DNA of 34,868 nt from Chloroflexota bacterium. Its GTDB lineage: Bacteria > Chloroflexota > Dormibacteria > CF-121. A program made the position numbers and the translations under genes. The DNA lies in assembly GCA_005881175.1 (NCBI GenBank), contig VBEN01000105.1, positions 1 through 34,868 on the forward strand, in the 5' to 3' direction. Under the pieces are notes generated by a model. That model searched no databases. It saw only the letters and a program-made list of their open reading frames with translations, and was not told the DNA's origin. Each line of letters starts with the position of its first letter. Position 1 is the first letter of the stretch. This document shows, piece by piece, positions 10,821-24,604 of this stretch.

Positions 10821-10856
10821 CCCTCCCCCCTTGTGGGGGAGGGTCCGGGTGGGGGG
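10821..10856. repeat. REP-like GC-rich palindromic element, copy 1
   Basis: A 36-bp element of the form CCCTCCCCCC-TTGT-GGGGGAGGG followed by a G-rich arm. It has a stem of about 9 bp and is preceded by five Ts. Thirty-four of its 36 bases match the copy inside iolB (23451-23486). It lies 8 nt after the stop of the GT2 gene and may also terminate its transcript. It is the intergenic reference copy of a dispersed repeat. Confidence 0.8.
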
Positions 10857-10909: not shown

Positions 10910-12256
10910 GTGAGCAAGAAAACCGTCATCGTCCTTGGGATCGACGGCTATCTCGGTTGGGCCACCGCGCTGCATCTCTCCCAGGCCGGCCATGCCGTGG
11001 TCGGCATCGACAGCCTGGTGCGCCGCCGCTGGGACCGCGAGTGTGGAACCCAGAGCCTGATCCCGATCAAGACCATGCCCCAGCGCGTCAAGCTCTGGCG
11101 CCGCCTGACCGGCCACCGCATCGACTGGCGGCCGATGGACCTCTGCGATGCGCGCGCCGTCACCGAGCTGATCAGTGAGTTACAGCCCGACGCTCTGGTG
11201 CACTTTGCCGAGCAGCGCAGCGCGCCGTTCTCGATGGTCGATTTGCCGCACGCAACCCTCACCCAGGTCAACAACCTGGTCGGGACGCTCAACCTCCTGT
11301 TTGCGCTGCGCGACCACGCACCAAAGGCGCACCTCATCAAGCTGGGGACGATGGGCGAGTACGGCACCCCGAACATCGACATCGAGGAGGGCTTCCTCAC
11401 CATCACGCACAACGGCCGCCAGGATCGGCTGCCCTTCCCGATGCAGCCGGGCAGCTTCTATCACCTGTCGAAGCTGCACGACAGCCACAACATCCAGTTT
11501 GCCTGCCGGATCTGGGGACTGCGCGCCACGGACCTGCACCAGGGGGTCGTCTACGGCAATCACACGGACGAAGTCGCGATGGATGCCGGGCTCAGCACCC
11601 GCTTCGACTACGACGCGATCTGGGGAACGGTGCTCAATCGCTTCTGCGTCCAGGCCGCGCTCGGGCTGCCGCTGACCGTCTACGGCAAGGGCGGGCAGAC
11701 CCGCGGCTTCCTGGACATCCGCGACACCGTCGCCTGTGTCCGGCTCGCGCTCGAGAACCCGGCCAACGAGGGCGAGTACCGGGTCTTCAACCAGTTCACC
11801 GAACAGTTCTCGGTTAAAACGCTGGCGGAGAAGGTGCGCGATGCCCGCGCCGTCCACGGGCTGGCGACGAACATCGTTCACCTGCCCAACCCGCGGGTCG
11901 AGCGAGAGGAGCATTACTACAACGCCAAGCATCAGAAGCTGCTCGACCTCGGGTTACAGCCCCACTATCTCGGCGATACCCTGATCGAGTCCGTGATCGA
12001 CGTCGTCGAGCGGCACGCGTCCCGGGTCGATCCGGTGGAGTTGGAGCAACCGAACGTCGACTGGCGACGCGGCGGCACGGCGAACTGGCGCAAGCCGGTG
12101 AAGAAGGCCACTGTCGATCGGGATGCAAGCCAGCGGCCGGTGGTTGTCAGCTCAAAGGCCCCCTCCCCGACCCTCCCCGCAAGGGGGAGGGAGAAAGACC
12201 CGACTGTTCCCGCAAGGGGGAGGGAGAAAGAGCGCCGCGTCGCTCAGACCCGCTGA
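10910..12256 (+). CDS. sqdB: UDP-sulfoquinovose synthase-like NAD-dependent epimerase
   Basis: An SDR-family enzyme expected to convert UDP-glucose and sulfite to UDP-sulfoquinovose, the head-group donor of the sulfolipid SQDG. The NAD loop is a variant, VLGIDGYLGWATALHL (8-23). GTMGEYGTPNIDIEEG (146-161) and SFYHLSK (182-188, Tyr184/Lys188) match SQD1/SqdB, as do RFDYDAIWGTVLNRFCVQAA and YGKGGQTRGFLDIRDT with VFNQFTEQFSV. The C-terminal tail (about residues 418-448) is encoded by REP-like repeat DNA and reads SPTLPARGREK twice over; it is probably not part of the fold. The stop runs 13 nt into the convergent flippase gene. The start is GTG 10910. The GT4 sulfoquinovosyltransferase (SqdX/SQD2) that usually accompanies it is not in the window. 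Confidence 0.85.
   Translation: MSKKTVIVLGIDGYLGWATALHLSQAGHAVVGIDSLVRRRWDRECGTQSLIPIKTMPQRVKLWRRLTGHRIDWRPMDLCDARAVTELISELQPDALVHFAEQRSAPFSMVDLPHATLTQVNNLVGTLNLLFALRDHAPKAHLIKLGTMGEYGTPNIDIEEGFLTITHNGRQDRLPFPMQPGSFYHLSKLHDSHNIQFACRIWGLRATDLHQGVVYGNHTDEVAMDAGLSTRFDYDAIWGTVLNRFCVQAALGLPLTVYGKGGQTRGFLDIRDTVACVRLALENPANEGEYRVFNQFTEQFSVKTLAEKVRDARAVHGLATNIVHLPNPRVEREEHYYNAKHQKLLDLGLQPHYLGDTLIESVIDVVERHASRVDPVELEQPNVDWRRGGTANWRKPVKKATVDRDASQRPVVVSSKAPSPTLPARGREKDPTVPARGREKERRVAQTR
12159..12231. repeat. REP-like repeat, copy 2, with a 23-bp direct repeat, inside the sqdB-like 3' end
   Basis: C-rich and G-rich arms around GCAA (12159-12192) resemble the other REP-like copies in opposite orientation. 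The 23-bp unit at 12176-12198 recurs exactly at 12209-12231, 33 bp later. The repeat is translated in frame as the tail of the SqdB-like protein and ends just before its stop. Confidence 0.75.
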
Positions 12257-20769: not shown

Positions 20770-21870
20770 CTAGGGCTGCGCACTCGCCCGCGCGGCCGCC
20801 AGATGCTCCCGGATGATGGCCTGGCAGAGCGCGACGTCCCGGGTGGCCTCGGCCGCGGTCGTGCGTGGCTCGCGATCTCTTACCACACAGTCGTAGAACT
20901 CGAGTAACTCCCGCTTGAACGATTCCTCATATGAAACGGTTTCCGCCGTCCGCCAGGAACGCGAATTATCCGCCCGCCCGCCTTCCAGGACCAGCTCTGT
21001 AGGCGCGCTACGCAGGAACGGCGACGGAAAGACCAGGGTAGCCCGGCCCTTGGGGCTGAAGAACGCGAATTCCTGACGGTAGCGCGCGACGCCATCCTGG
21101 ACGTTGACCCAGTGCATCGCCGCCGAGCTCTGGGCAAAGTCGAGAAAGACGCTGATGGAGGCCTCGCTGACGTTTGCGAAGCGCAACGCCGTCGGCTCGC
21201 CCAGCAGACCGCGCATCAAATTGATGTCGTGGATCATGCTGTCCAGCAGCGAGCGCCGGTACGCCGCGCGCAGGGCCGGATCGGTGATGCCGATCGCCGC
21301 CGTCACGCGCGCCTCGTCATCCGCCTGGAACGCGCTCAAGGTTCCGCCGTTGATGTCCGTGCCGCGGACGATCGGATAGTGCCCGATGTACCACTTCAGC
21401 GGGAACTCGGCCGTCGTCGAGCTGGCGAAGCGCAGCGGCGAAAAGCCGCGGAGTTCCTCGGCCATCCGCTCGACCGCAGGATCGTACCGCTTCATGTAGC
21501 CGACCATGATGCGGACCCCGGCTTGCTTTCCGGCACTGACGATCGACTGGCCTTCGGCCTCGGATAGCGCGATCGGCTTCTCCACGAAAACATGCCGCCC
21601 CGCCCGCGCCGCACTCACCACGATCGGCTCATGGCTGCCGGTCGTGAGCACCATCACGGCGTCCAGCGGCTCCTCGAGAAGCGCCGCCCAATCCGTGAAT
21701 CGCCGGCTGACGCCGTAGGCATCGCCAATCCGGTCCACCACAGTTCGGGACAGGTCACAGACCGCCACAATCTCGAAGCGGTCGTTGAGCTCCCGCAGAT
21801 AATGCAGGTGCATCACCTGTGCGATGAGTCCGCAACCGATGACGCCAACGCGGAGTCGAGCCTCAGCCAA
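20770..21870 (-). CDS. Gfo/Idh/MocA oxidoreductase, probable inositol dehydrogenase
   Basis: A 366-aa NAD(P)-dependent oxidoreductase. The Rossmann loop is VGVIGCGLIAQ (8-18); EKP is at 97-99 (Lys98 of the active site), and SLLDSMIHDINLM (208-219) gives the conserved Asp210/His214 pair of inositol dehydrogenases. It is divergent from iolE by only about 40 bp and shares a promoter region with it, so it probably oxidises myo-inositol (or scyllo- or D-chiro-inositol) to the inosose that feeds IolE. Substrate specificity is inferred, not shown: other Gfo/Idh/MocA members act on very different sugars. The start is TTG 21870; it lies 10 nt after TATAGT, so the mRNA leader is very short. Confidence 0.75.
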   Translation of the reverse strand: MAEARLRVGVIGCGLIAQVMHLHYLRELNDRFEIVAVCDLSRTVVDRIGDAYGVSRRFTDWAALLEEPLDAVMVLTTGSHEPIVVSAARAGRHVFVEKPIALSEAEGQSIVSAGKQAGVRIMVGYMKRYDPAVERMAEELRGFSPLRFASSTTAEFPLKWYIGHYPIVRGTDINGGTLSAFQADDEARVTAAIGITDPALRAAYRRSLLDSMIHDINLMRGLLGEPTALRFANVSEASISVFLDFAQSSAAMHWVNVQDGVARYRQEFAFFSPKGRATLVFPSPFLRSAPTELVLEGGRADNSRSWRTAETVSYEESFKRELLEFYDCVVRDREPRTTAAEATRDVALCQAIIREHLAAARASAQP

Positions 21871-21880
21871 GCTGGGCGCG

Positions 21881-21910
21881 ACTATACTCCGGTGGTCGAT
21901 GGCCGGTCAA
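21881..21910 (-). promoter_or_regulatory. Promoter of the oxidoreductase gene, overlapping the iolE -10
   Basis: On the minus strand TTGACC (21910-21905) and TATAGT (21886-21881) are 18 nt apart, a good sigma-70-type promoter. The plus strand carries TATACT at 21883-21888, sharing 4 bases, which could be the -10 of iolE. The two promoters therefore compete for one site. No clear plus-strand -35 is seen. Confidence 0.6.
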
Positions 21911-22860
21911 TGCGTCGCGTGTCCGCGAGGCCGGCGCATCTGACCGCATCGATTGCCATCGCCGGTGCCCCGGTCTCGTTCGGCGCCTTTGAGGTCACCG
22001 TCGGCGTGGATCCGCACGTGCCTGATGCCATCACGGTTCTCGACGCAGTGCAGCGCGCCGGGTACGCCGGCATCGACCTCGGGCCGCCTGGCTACCTGGG
22101 AGATGGCCGTGAGCTTTCCGATCGCCTTCAGCGCCGTGGCCTTTACCTCGCGGGCGGTTATATCGCGATGCCCTTCTCCGAATCCAATCGAATGCCGTCC
22201 GCTCTGGACGAACTGGCTCGCCTGCTCGATATCTTCGACGGCGTGAATGGCCAGGCCCCCAATCCGCCGCGAGCTACGCTCGCGGACGCCGGCTCTGACG
22301 CCCGCCGGCGGACGCCGGGGCGTGCGCATGACGATCCGTCCCTGATGCTCGATCAAGCCGGCTGGACAAGGTTCGCCGACGGCGTCGCCCGCGCCGCCGC
22401 GCTGGTTCGCCGGCGCGGTTACGAGCCGACCTTTCACCATCACGGCGCGAGCTACGTCGAAACGCCAGAAGAGATCGGCGAAATGCTCGCGCGGACCGAC
22501 GTCGGGCTCTGCCTCGATACCGGCCACCTGATCATTGGTGGCGGCGATCCCCATCAAGCCCTGAGCGATTGGGCCGCCCGGATCAATCATCTGCATCTGA
22601 AGGATGTTCGCCGGGCGGTGATCGATGGCGTGATCGCCAGGGAGGGCGTGATGATCGATTTCTGGCGTGAGGGTGCGTTCTGCCCGCTGGGCGAGGGTGA
22701 TCTCGACATCGACGCGATCCTGCGCGCCATCCGGGATCGGGGTTTTCGCGGCTGGCTCGTCGTGGAGCAGGACATGCTGCCCCGTCCGGACGTCTCACCC
22801 GATCGGGCCGCTCGCGACCAGCAAAAAAACCGGGAGTATCTTCGGGTCCGCGACTTGTGA
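21910..22860 (+). CDS. iolE: Inosose dehydratase IolE
   Basis: A 316-aa TIM barrel of the AP endonuclease 2 / xylose-isomerase-like family. It dehydrates scyllo-inosose to 3D-trihydroxycyclohexanedione. Recognisable parts are IAIAGAPVSFG (IolE starts with iaiaPisW), VQRAGYAGIDLGPPGYLGD, GLYLAGGYIAMPF, FHHHGASYVETPEEI, LCLDTGHLIIGGGDPHQAL, INHLHLKDVR (His and Asp metal ligands) and AFCPLGEGDLDID followed by WLVVEQDM. All match the IolE C-terminal half. A loop of about 35 residues near position 113-147 is rich in Pro, Ala, Arg and Asp and looks like a lineage-specific insertion. ATG 21910 is chosen; GTG 21892 and GTG 21919 are possible. The stop overlaps iolB (GTGA). Confidence 0.88.
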   Translation: MRRVSARPAHLTASIAIAGAPVSFGAFEVTVGVDPHVPDAITVLDAVQRAGYAGIDLGPPGYLGDGRELSDRLQRRGLYLAGGYIAMPFSESNRMPSALDELARLLDIFDGVNGQAPNPPRATLADAGSDARRRTPGRAHDDPSLMLDQAGWTRFADGVARAAALVRRRGYEPTFHHHGASYVETPEEIGEMLARTDVGLCLDTGHLIIGGGDPHQALSDWAARINHLHLKDVRRAVIDGVIAREGVMIDFWREGAFCPLGEGDLDIDAILRAIRDRGFRGWLVVEQDMLPRPDVSPDRAARDQQKNREYLRVRDL

Positions 22861-23675
22861 GCGACGGCGGCCTGGTTCGAAACGCGGGCGAAGGCGTCAA
22901 CCCGAAGACGGCGGGCTGGACCTACCTCTCGTTCCGCACCGTTGGCTGCCGCGCGGATGAAATCCTGGCCGGCGAGACCGGTGCGGACGAGACGGCACTG
23001 ATCTGGCTGGGCGGGCGCGCTGAGGTCGACGGCTTCGGCCAGGTTGGTGGACGCGACGACGTGTTCTCGGGATTGCCGTCGGCCCTGTTGCTCCCGCCAG
23101 GCGCCTCGTTCACGCTGCGGGCTCTCACCCCGCTCCACCTCGCCATCGTCTCGGCGCCGGCCGAGTCGGCACCCGCAGCGCGCCTAATCCGTCCCGAGGA
23201 TATGCGGGTGGAGATGCGCGGCACGGGCGTCACCCAGCGCAAAATCCACTGGATCCTGTCGGAAAAGGAACCCGCGGCCCGCCTGCTGCTGGTCGAGGTG
23301 CTGACCCCCGCCGGCCACTGGTCGACCTACCCGCCCCACAAGCACGACGAGCACACCCCGGGGGTGGAGCGCGCGCTGGAGGAGCTCTACTATTACCGGT
23401 TCAACCCCGAGCAGGGCTTCGCCTTCCAGGGCATCTACACGAAACCATCTCCCTCCCCCCTTGCGGGGGAGGGTCGGGGTGGGGGGTCTCCCCTCAATGT
23501 CTCGATCCGCGCCCACCACGATGATCTCGTCCTGGTTCCGCGCGGCTATCACGTCGTCTCCGCCGCGCCGGGATACGACTGCTATTACCTGAACGCGATG
23601 GCCGGCGCCGTTCGCGAGTGGCTCTTCACCACCGACCCCGACCACGAGTGGCTGATGGACTGGAAGAAAACATGA
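22857..23675 (+). CDS. iolB: 5-deoxy-glucuronate isomerase IolB
   Basis: A 272-aa cupin enzyme that converts 5-deoxy-glucuronate to 2-deoxy-5-keto-gluconate in the inositol pathway. Metal ligands are visible in STYPPHKHDEH (His161, 163 and nearby) and LEELYYYRF (Glu175/176), with HHDDLVLVPRGYHVV and YDCYYLNAMAG in the C-terminal cupin half. Residues 199-210 are encoded exactly by the 36-bp REP-like element, in frame, between the strands FAFQGIYT and VSIRAHHDD, where other IolB proteins have a short loop. The frame is kept, and all metal ligands survive, so the enzyme may remain active with an extra loop. GTG 22857 overlaps the iolE stop. The stop overlaps iolC (ATGA). Confidence 0.9.
   Translation: MSDGGLVRNAGEGVNPKTAGWTYLSFRTVGCRADEILAGETGADETALIWLGGRAEVDGFGQVGGRDDVFSGLPSALLLPPGASFTLRALTPLHLAIVSAPAESAPAARLIRPEDMRVEMRGTGVTQRKIHWILSEKEPAARLLLVEVLTPAGHWSTYPPHKHDEHTPGVERALEELYYYRFNPEQGFAFQGIYTKPSPSPLAGEGRGGGSPLNVSIRAHHDDLVLVPRGYHVVSAAPGYDCYYLNAMAGAVREWLFTTDPDHEWLMDWKKT
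23451..23486. repeat. REP-like palindromic element, copy 3, in frame inside iolB
   Basis: The 36-bp unit matches copy 1 at 10821-10856 at 34 of 36 positions and has the loop TTGC in place of TTGT. It is an exact multiple of three and codes for residues 199-210 of IolB. The hairpin arms are a C-tract and a GGGGGAGGG run. Confidence 0.85.
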
Positions 23676-24604
23676 CCGAGGTCGTGGTGATGGGCCGGCT
23701 GAGCGCCGACATCTATCCGACGCAGCTGCGCACCGCTTTACGCGACCAGCGCAGCTTCACCCGCTACGTCGGCGGCTTCGCCGGCAACGTGTGCACCGGC
23801 CTGGCCCGGCTGCAGGTGTCAACTGCCATTGTCAGCAAGGTGGGCAACGACGGACACGGCGAGTTCATCCGCGATTTCCTGTTACGTGAAGGCGTCGATG
23901 TCGGCTGGCTGGGCGTCGACCGCACGCTCAATACGCCGGTCGTCTTCTGTGAGATCTGGCCGCCGGATCGGTTTCCATTGCTGTTCTATCGAACCCCGAC
24001 CTGTCCGGATTGGGAGCTGACGGCGAGCGACTTCGACCTGGAGGCTGTCGCCAACGCGCCAGTCCTGCTGGTGTCCGGCACGGGGCTGGCGCGCGAGAAC
24101 AGCCGCCGGGCCCAGATGGCGGCTCTGGAGGGCCACCGGCATACGGTGATCTTCGACCTCGACTATCGCCCATCGTTCTGGCAAGAGGCGGCGGCGTATC
24201 GGGAGGCGGTCGCAGCCGCTCTACCTCATGCCGATATCGTCGTCGGTAATGAGGACGAGGTTCGAGCCGCCACCGGCCTGGTGGATCCACGAGCGGGCAT
24301 CGCCGCGCTGCGCGCGGCTGGGCCCCGCATCCTCGTGCTGAAGCGAGGCGGTGAAGGGGCCACGCTCTTCGAAGGTGATCGCGTCCTTGAAGCGGCCCCC
24401 GTGAAAATGGCAGTGGTCAACGGGCTGGGGGCCGGTGACGCGTTTCTGGCGGCCTTCACCCATGCTCTGCTGCGTGGCATGGACTTCGCCACCGCCCTGC
24501 ACCGAGCAAACCAGGCCGGGGCCATCGTCGCAAGCCAGATCCCCTGCTCGGAAGCCATGCCCTTCCTGAAAGACCTGGACGCGGCCGTCGCATCGGCGCC
24601 CTGA
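23672..24604 (+). CDS. iolC: 5-dehydro-2-deoxygluconokinase IolC
   Basis: A 310-aa PfkB-family kinase that phosphorylates 2-deoxy-5-keto-gluconate for aldol cleavage. RYVGGFAGNVCTGLARLQV (31-49) is the first PfkB signature, and VVNGLGAGDAFLAAF (248-262, catalytic Asp256) is the second. Other matching parts are SKVGNDGHGEFI, LNTPVVFCEIWPPDRFPLLFYR and IVVGNEDEVRAATG. The length is normal for a stand-alone IolC, without the fused C-terminal DUF2090 aldolase of some relatives. ATG 23672 overlaps the iolB stop. The aldolase role may be taken by the protein at 29077. Confidence 0.9.
   Translation: MTEVVVMGRLSADIYPTQLRTALRDQRSFTRYVGGFAGNVCTGLARLQVSTAIVSKVGNDGHGEFIRDFLLREGVDVGWLGVDRTLNTPVVFCEIWPPDRFPLLFYRTPTCPDWELTASDFDLEAVANAPVLLVSGTGLARENSRRAQMAALEGHRHTVIFDLDYRPSFWQEAAAYREAVAAALPHADIVVGNEDEVRAATGLVDPRAGIAALRAAGPRILVLKRGGEGATLFEGDRVLEAAPVKMAVVNGLGAGDAFLAAFTHALLRGMDFATALHRANQAGAIVASQIPCSEAMPFLKDLDAAVASAP

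Follow-up and report, generated by a model that had tools for sequence, protein, structure and literature searches.

A dispersed palindromic repeat family of Chloroflexota with intergenic copies and with in-frame copies inside iolB and other genes

Palindromic elements inserted in frame into genes are known in Rickettsia and Wolbachia, and intragenic REPs have been described as well (PMC3733652, PMC2229807, PMC3767692). The Rickettsia and Wolbachia elements occupy intergenic positions and are also read in frame in conserved genes of metabolism and information processing, their inserts are solvent-exposed, and variant copies appear at or near the same site of orthologous genes (PMC3767692, PMC2229807, PMC10969869). 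In Rickettsia japonica this pattern of different copies in the same loop has been seen for RPE-4, RPE-6 and RPE-7, the choice between hot spot and divergence being left undecided there (PMC3767692). The GTAG/CGTC REPs are dispersed palindromes of 20-40 bp, one end of which carries a conserved tag. Some of them lie inside ORFs, where related species may share the site, and the CGTC REPs are without a dedicated transposase (PMC3733652). ERIC and Correia MITEs are non-autonomous and able to fuse in frame with host ORFs (PMC2229807). The Chloroflexota element described here resembles each of these systems in the respects just listed. However, RPE are rickettsial and ~100-150 bp long (PMC2229807, PMC3767692), whereas our element is ~40 bp, GC-rich, of unrelated consensus and read in five frames. 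Unlike in REPs, its conserved end is a G-rich tail without GTAG or CGTC, and no Y1/RAYT gene accompanies it in 15 congeneric genomes; compared to ERIC/Correia MITEs, it is shorter and lacks terminal inverted repeats apart from the hairpin. It behaves as RPE and intragenic REPs do, yet it is neither an RPE nor a classical REP, and we consider it a new family.

The window analyzed here is a stretch of 34,868 nucleotides, contig C100 of a draft MAG (2.88 Mb, 246 contigs). It contains an iolB gene (Table 1) with an intact reading frame, whose product scores 266.7 bits against the TIGR04378 equivalog (cut-off 205). The 36-mer at 23451-23486 is in frame and encodes PSPLAGEGRGGG within IolB; its coordinates, its 34/36 identity to the intergenic copy, the residues that it encodes and the intact frame were all reproduced as given in the initial annotation. 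The insertion had been put at 12 residues without frame change; the frame is kept, but 13 residues (39 bp) have been added with respect to both the empty congeners and the PDB structure 2QJV, in the alignment to which the insert appears as a 13-residue gap. In the same way, the element is present but its full conserved unit is ~40 bp rather than 36. The PF04962 match runs across the insert and the invariant residues of IolB are intact. The AlphaFold2 model (mean pLDDT 92.3) matches 2QJV with a TM-score of 0.89, and residues 202-208, with pLDDT <50, belong to a loop that joins strands 188-194 and 214-220. In this model the insert forms a disordered loop that links two cupin strands. The enzyme carrying it most likely stays active. 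Together with the comparison of empty and filled congeners, the model bears out the proposal that a palindromic repeat has here turned into protein sequence between cupin strands. Upstream of iolB, the TIGR04379 match of the iolE-like ORF begins only at residue 148, and the true start of this gene is probably further downstream.

Table 1. Coordinates of the features discussed (positions of the window unless another sequence is named)
Feature	Position	Strand	Evidence or remark
Intergenic copy	10821..10856	+	1 mismatch to search pattern
Two tandem 33-bp inverted-orientation copies of a related palindrome	12166..12231	+	repeat/inverted-pair detection, translation
iolE-like ORF, overlaps iolB by 4 bases	21592..22860	+	TIGR04379, 142.6 bits, under cut-off 290
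iolB, 5-deoxy-glucuronate isomerase with insert at residues 199-210	22857..23675	+	TIGR04378, PF04962, fold
Stretch with 39 extra bases (13 residues)	23446..23493	+	codon/DNA alignment vs G003, G010, G001, G015
Complete repeat unit, ~40 bp	23448..23487	+	consensus TCTCCCTCCCCCCTTGYGGGGGAGGGTCGGGGTGGGGGGT
Hairpin, 9-bp stem CCCTCCCCC / GGGGGAGGG, loop CTTGC	23451..23473	+	predicted fold
Conserved G-rich 3' tail TCGGGGTGGGGGGT	23474..23487	+	consensus of 132 copies
iolC N-terminal kinase, overlaps iolB by 4 bases	23672..24604	+	TIGR04382, 319.8 bits, cut-off 300
G001 post-iolB copy	L033 ~2271-2306; around G001:C162:13193-13228	same orientation as iolB copy	

Loop length varies among distant IolB proteins and the element contains many runs of G and C, so one might think of a low-complexity loop that simply differs in length, or of an assembly artefact, with no repeat insertion at all. 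This reading is hardly conceivable and is refuted by the multi-copy family to which the element belongs. The 36-mer (<=3 mismatches) has 25 copies in its own genome, well beyond the two of the window, and in its exact form recurs at unrelated loci, against 0 matches of a reversed control pattern; the two window copies compare to 0 matches in 100 shuffles, which excludes chance. Furthermore, the same iolB site is filled in four separate assemblies with diverged flanks.

In order to delimit the repeat unit we have used 132 copies from seven congeneric genomes, in which information content per position drops to ~0 outside the unit of Table 1. On its 5' side the consensus reads TCT, and at its 3' end stands the G-rich tail. 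Copies picked by the G arm and tail alone nearly always had a C arm able to pair over 9-10 bp; random upstream sequence mostly gave 2-5 bp of pairing. The consensus and the C arm kept in these blindly picked copies indicate that the unit consists of a hairpin plus a conserved G-rich tail. The loops vary by subfamily (e.g., CTTGY, GCTTGC, TCGAY). No separate terminal inverted repeats beyond the hairpin were present in the consensus, and no target-site duplication could be clearly defined from the empty sites, whose sequences are too diverged. A literature search with the element and peptide strings found no match.

The G arm plus tail was found in 18/18 genomes of this Chloroflexota family and in 5/92 other genomes of the class, with one copy each. 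Scanning the phylum, we have found the hairpin-plus-tail architecture at low copy, with loops of their own, in a few other Chloroflexota families; genomes with such copies include G143, G163, G227, G338 and G344, some clustered. The intergenic copy of the window, with no same-frame coding potential on its two sides, has an ortholog in G011, where the sequence on either side is conserved too. General concerted evolution of the family was considered and rejected, since orthologous copies often retain their own subfamily loop, a comparison that is biased by retrieval at <=3 mismatches.

The element had been called REP-like in the initial annotation, and this is appropriate insofar as it is, like REPs, a ~40-bp dispersed multi-copy palindrome, mostly outside genes and at times in tandem arrays. 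However, it seems very improbable that the element is a REP of the classical sort, moved by a REP-associated tyrosine transposase (RAYT): neither a GTAG nor a CGTC tag is present in the 132-copy consensus, and Y1_Tnp/RAYT (PF01797) was detected in 0/15 congeneric genomes (75-95% complete), while five control genomes were positive. For these two reasons the element can be described as REP-like only, not as a strict REP.

Whether a copy lies in frame within a gene was decided by the codon likelihood on both its flanks. By this measure 39/132 copies are in frame and intragenic, in 28 gene clusters, and the other 93 were not so called. At random positions the corresponding figure is 316/467, that is, copies are depleted 2.3-fold in coding sequence (Fisher p ~6e-15). 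A second set consisted of 60 interior copies from G015, G016, G005 and G013 and, in small number, from G000 and G004; 13 of them were in frame, versus 134/207 random positions. The call is conservative, since an acyl-CoA synthetase copy (L015) falls below the threshold although PF00501 spans it. The insertion in iolB is thus not unique and, with ~30% of sampled copies in frame inside genes and in-frame elements known elsewhere, the earlier opinion that an intragenic copy is unusual is not supported. In its own genome, genes with in-frame copies include (by Pfam) argH, aroE, an AMP-binding synthetase, a GcvT-like oxidoreductase, lysE and an ArsP_1 permease, at whose site an old degenerate copy exists also in G007; in congeners they include ddl, an Lhr-type helicase, cysS, dnaG, gcvT, tilS and the 2-oxoacid dehydrogenase E2. 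Pfam domains span or flank the inserts, and those of DnaG, CysS, TilS and E2 sit between domains. As with RPE, the copies are in frame in conserved genes that stay open (IolB, ArgH, AroE, CysS, Ddl, DnaG, Lhr, GcvT and others), in a loop by the model in IolB and in linkers by Pfam boundaries in DnaG, CysS, TilS and E2.

A way to approach translation of the inserts is to look at the frames used. Five of the six are used as coding frames, but the PSPLAGEGRGGG frame accounts for 17/30 gene-cluster/frame combinations (binomial p ~8e-7) and the frame containing Cys and Trp for 0/30. This preference points to selection on the encoded peptide, although it could stem in part from an insertion target that is itself biased in codon phase. 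Together with the intact downstream coding sequence, the frame bias is the best sign, if an indirect one read from sequence, that the inserts are translated. Openness of the element in all six frames was rejected as a special adaptation, as 78% of shuffles with the composition of the 36-mer are equally open. Elsewhere in the window, a UDP-sulfoquinovose-synthase-like ORF has its C-terminus extended by the two tandem copies of a related palindrome, which are translated in frame as PSPTLPARGREKDPTVPARGREKE within its tail. This tail contains KAPSPTLPARGREKDPTVPARGREKE, a second repeat-derived protein segment in the window; the tails of this ORF are shorter in G007 and G011.

Several loops hold different copies in different species. 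The AroE, ArgH and acyl-CoA synthetase loops contain repeat variants in most congeners. In the AroE linker they were found in 9/12 species, among which G006 and G007 have double copies and G014 uses another frame; the ArgH site ahead of EDIHM and the acyl-CoA synthetase site ahead of YTSGTTG present a similar pattern, and the frame of the CysS copy in G011 differs from that in G006. In-frame tandem doubles that give two peptide repeats were seen at L192 (aroE, G007), L190 (aroE, G006) and L274 (cysS, G011). One possibility is that these loops are hot spots of repeated, independent insertion, as opposed to places where an ancestral insertion has since diverged or lost part of its sequence. Hot spots are favored by the acs, aroE and cysS sites, where the copies differ in loop subfamily and frame and, in one case, are in opposite orientation; on the other hand, some "empty" argH and aroE sites keep tail-like remnants, which fit ancestral insertion and decay, and the iolB insert is common to a supported clade, which again fits an ancestral insertion. 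We regard the hot-spot reading as plausible, though short of probable.

At the iolB site the insert is present in G000, G007, G011 and G014, a clade with 100/100 support, and absent from G003, G010, G001 and G015, so that presence and absence do vary among sister species. G002 has a divergent form of the insert, and in G011 and G014 there are 21 further bases that resemble a degenerate inverted tail. The element itself varies at 1/36 positions among the four species, versus 24% in the rest of iolB, and 0/232 other 36-nt windows of the gene are equally conserved. Third positions vary at 0/12 in the element (window copy plus L027, L028 and L029) versus 52% elsewhere in iolB. This synonymous near-invariance exceeds plain neutral expectation and may reflect homogenisation, nucleic-acid constraint or assembly smoothing. 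Along the last of these lines, the genomes of the congeners are drafts in many pieces, all of them apparently MAGs, in which assembly could homogenise short repeats.

Could the iolB copy be kept for a function of the nucleic acid, a hairpin or G-quadruplex that sets the stability or relative expression of the iolE-iolB-iolC mRNA, with the peptide as a by-product? The near-invariance just described would fit, and so would G001, in which iolB has no insert and a perfect copy in the same orientation is found directly 3' of the iolB stop, ahead of iolC. The G arm and tail (23465-23486) also form a canonical G-quadruplex motif (G5-A-G3-TC-G4-T-G6), the sequence of which is retained in 114/132 copies. 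However, the element is missing from G003 and G010 both at the iolB site and in the sequence covered immediately past iolB, substitutions among copies show no clear confinement to quadruplex-neutral positions, and the AroE and ArgH insert variants diverge more between species. The RNA hairpin anticipated in the initial annotation is indeed predicted (-24.4 kcal/mol), but its stability is no better than that of same-composition shuffles (z -0.47). Taking both sides into account, we find such a function of the iolB copy distinctly unlikely. It is unlikely too, if marginally less so, that the invariance comes from a hairpin or G-quadruplex in the iolB-iolC message gained on two occasions (within iolB in four to five species and between iolB and iolC in G001), or else from a RAYT-free system that rewrites copies to the consensus.

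The family is widespread and has intergenic as well as in-frame intragenic copies; its presence at a given site differs by species, and the hairpin is kept. In our view the iolB element is very probably a member of this dispersed, non-autonomous palindromic repeat family, which is tolerated in loops and linkers. Repeat copies would enter the genome by some mechanism, those that break genes would be purged, and in-frame copies in surface loops and interdomain linkers would survive as flexible proline/glycine-rich peptides. The iolB insert would date back at least to the ancestor shared by G000, G007, G011 and G014. Against this explanation we count that no mobilising enzyme was found (Y1_Tnp being absent from the 15 congeneric genomes), the synonymous near-invariance in iolB, the draft-MAG assemblies and the want of a clear target-site duplication.

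With this family, protein-coding palindromic repeats are extended to soil Chloroflexota, in a lineage whose genome is GC-rich. Its spread without a detectable RAYT makes the mobilisation of the repeat a testable question. The many presence/absence contrasts in essential enzymes provide, in addition, a natural test set for the tolerance of proteins to mobile DNA in their loops.
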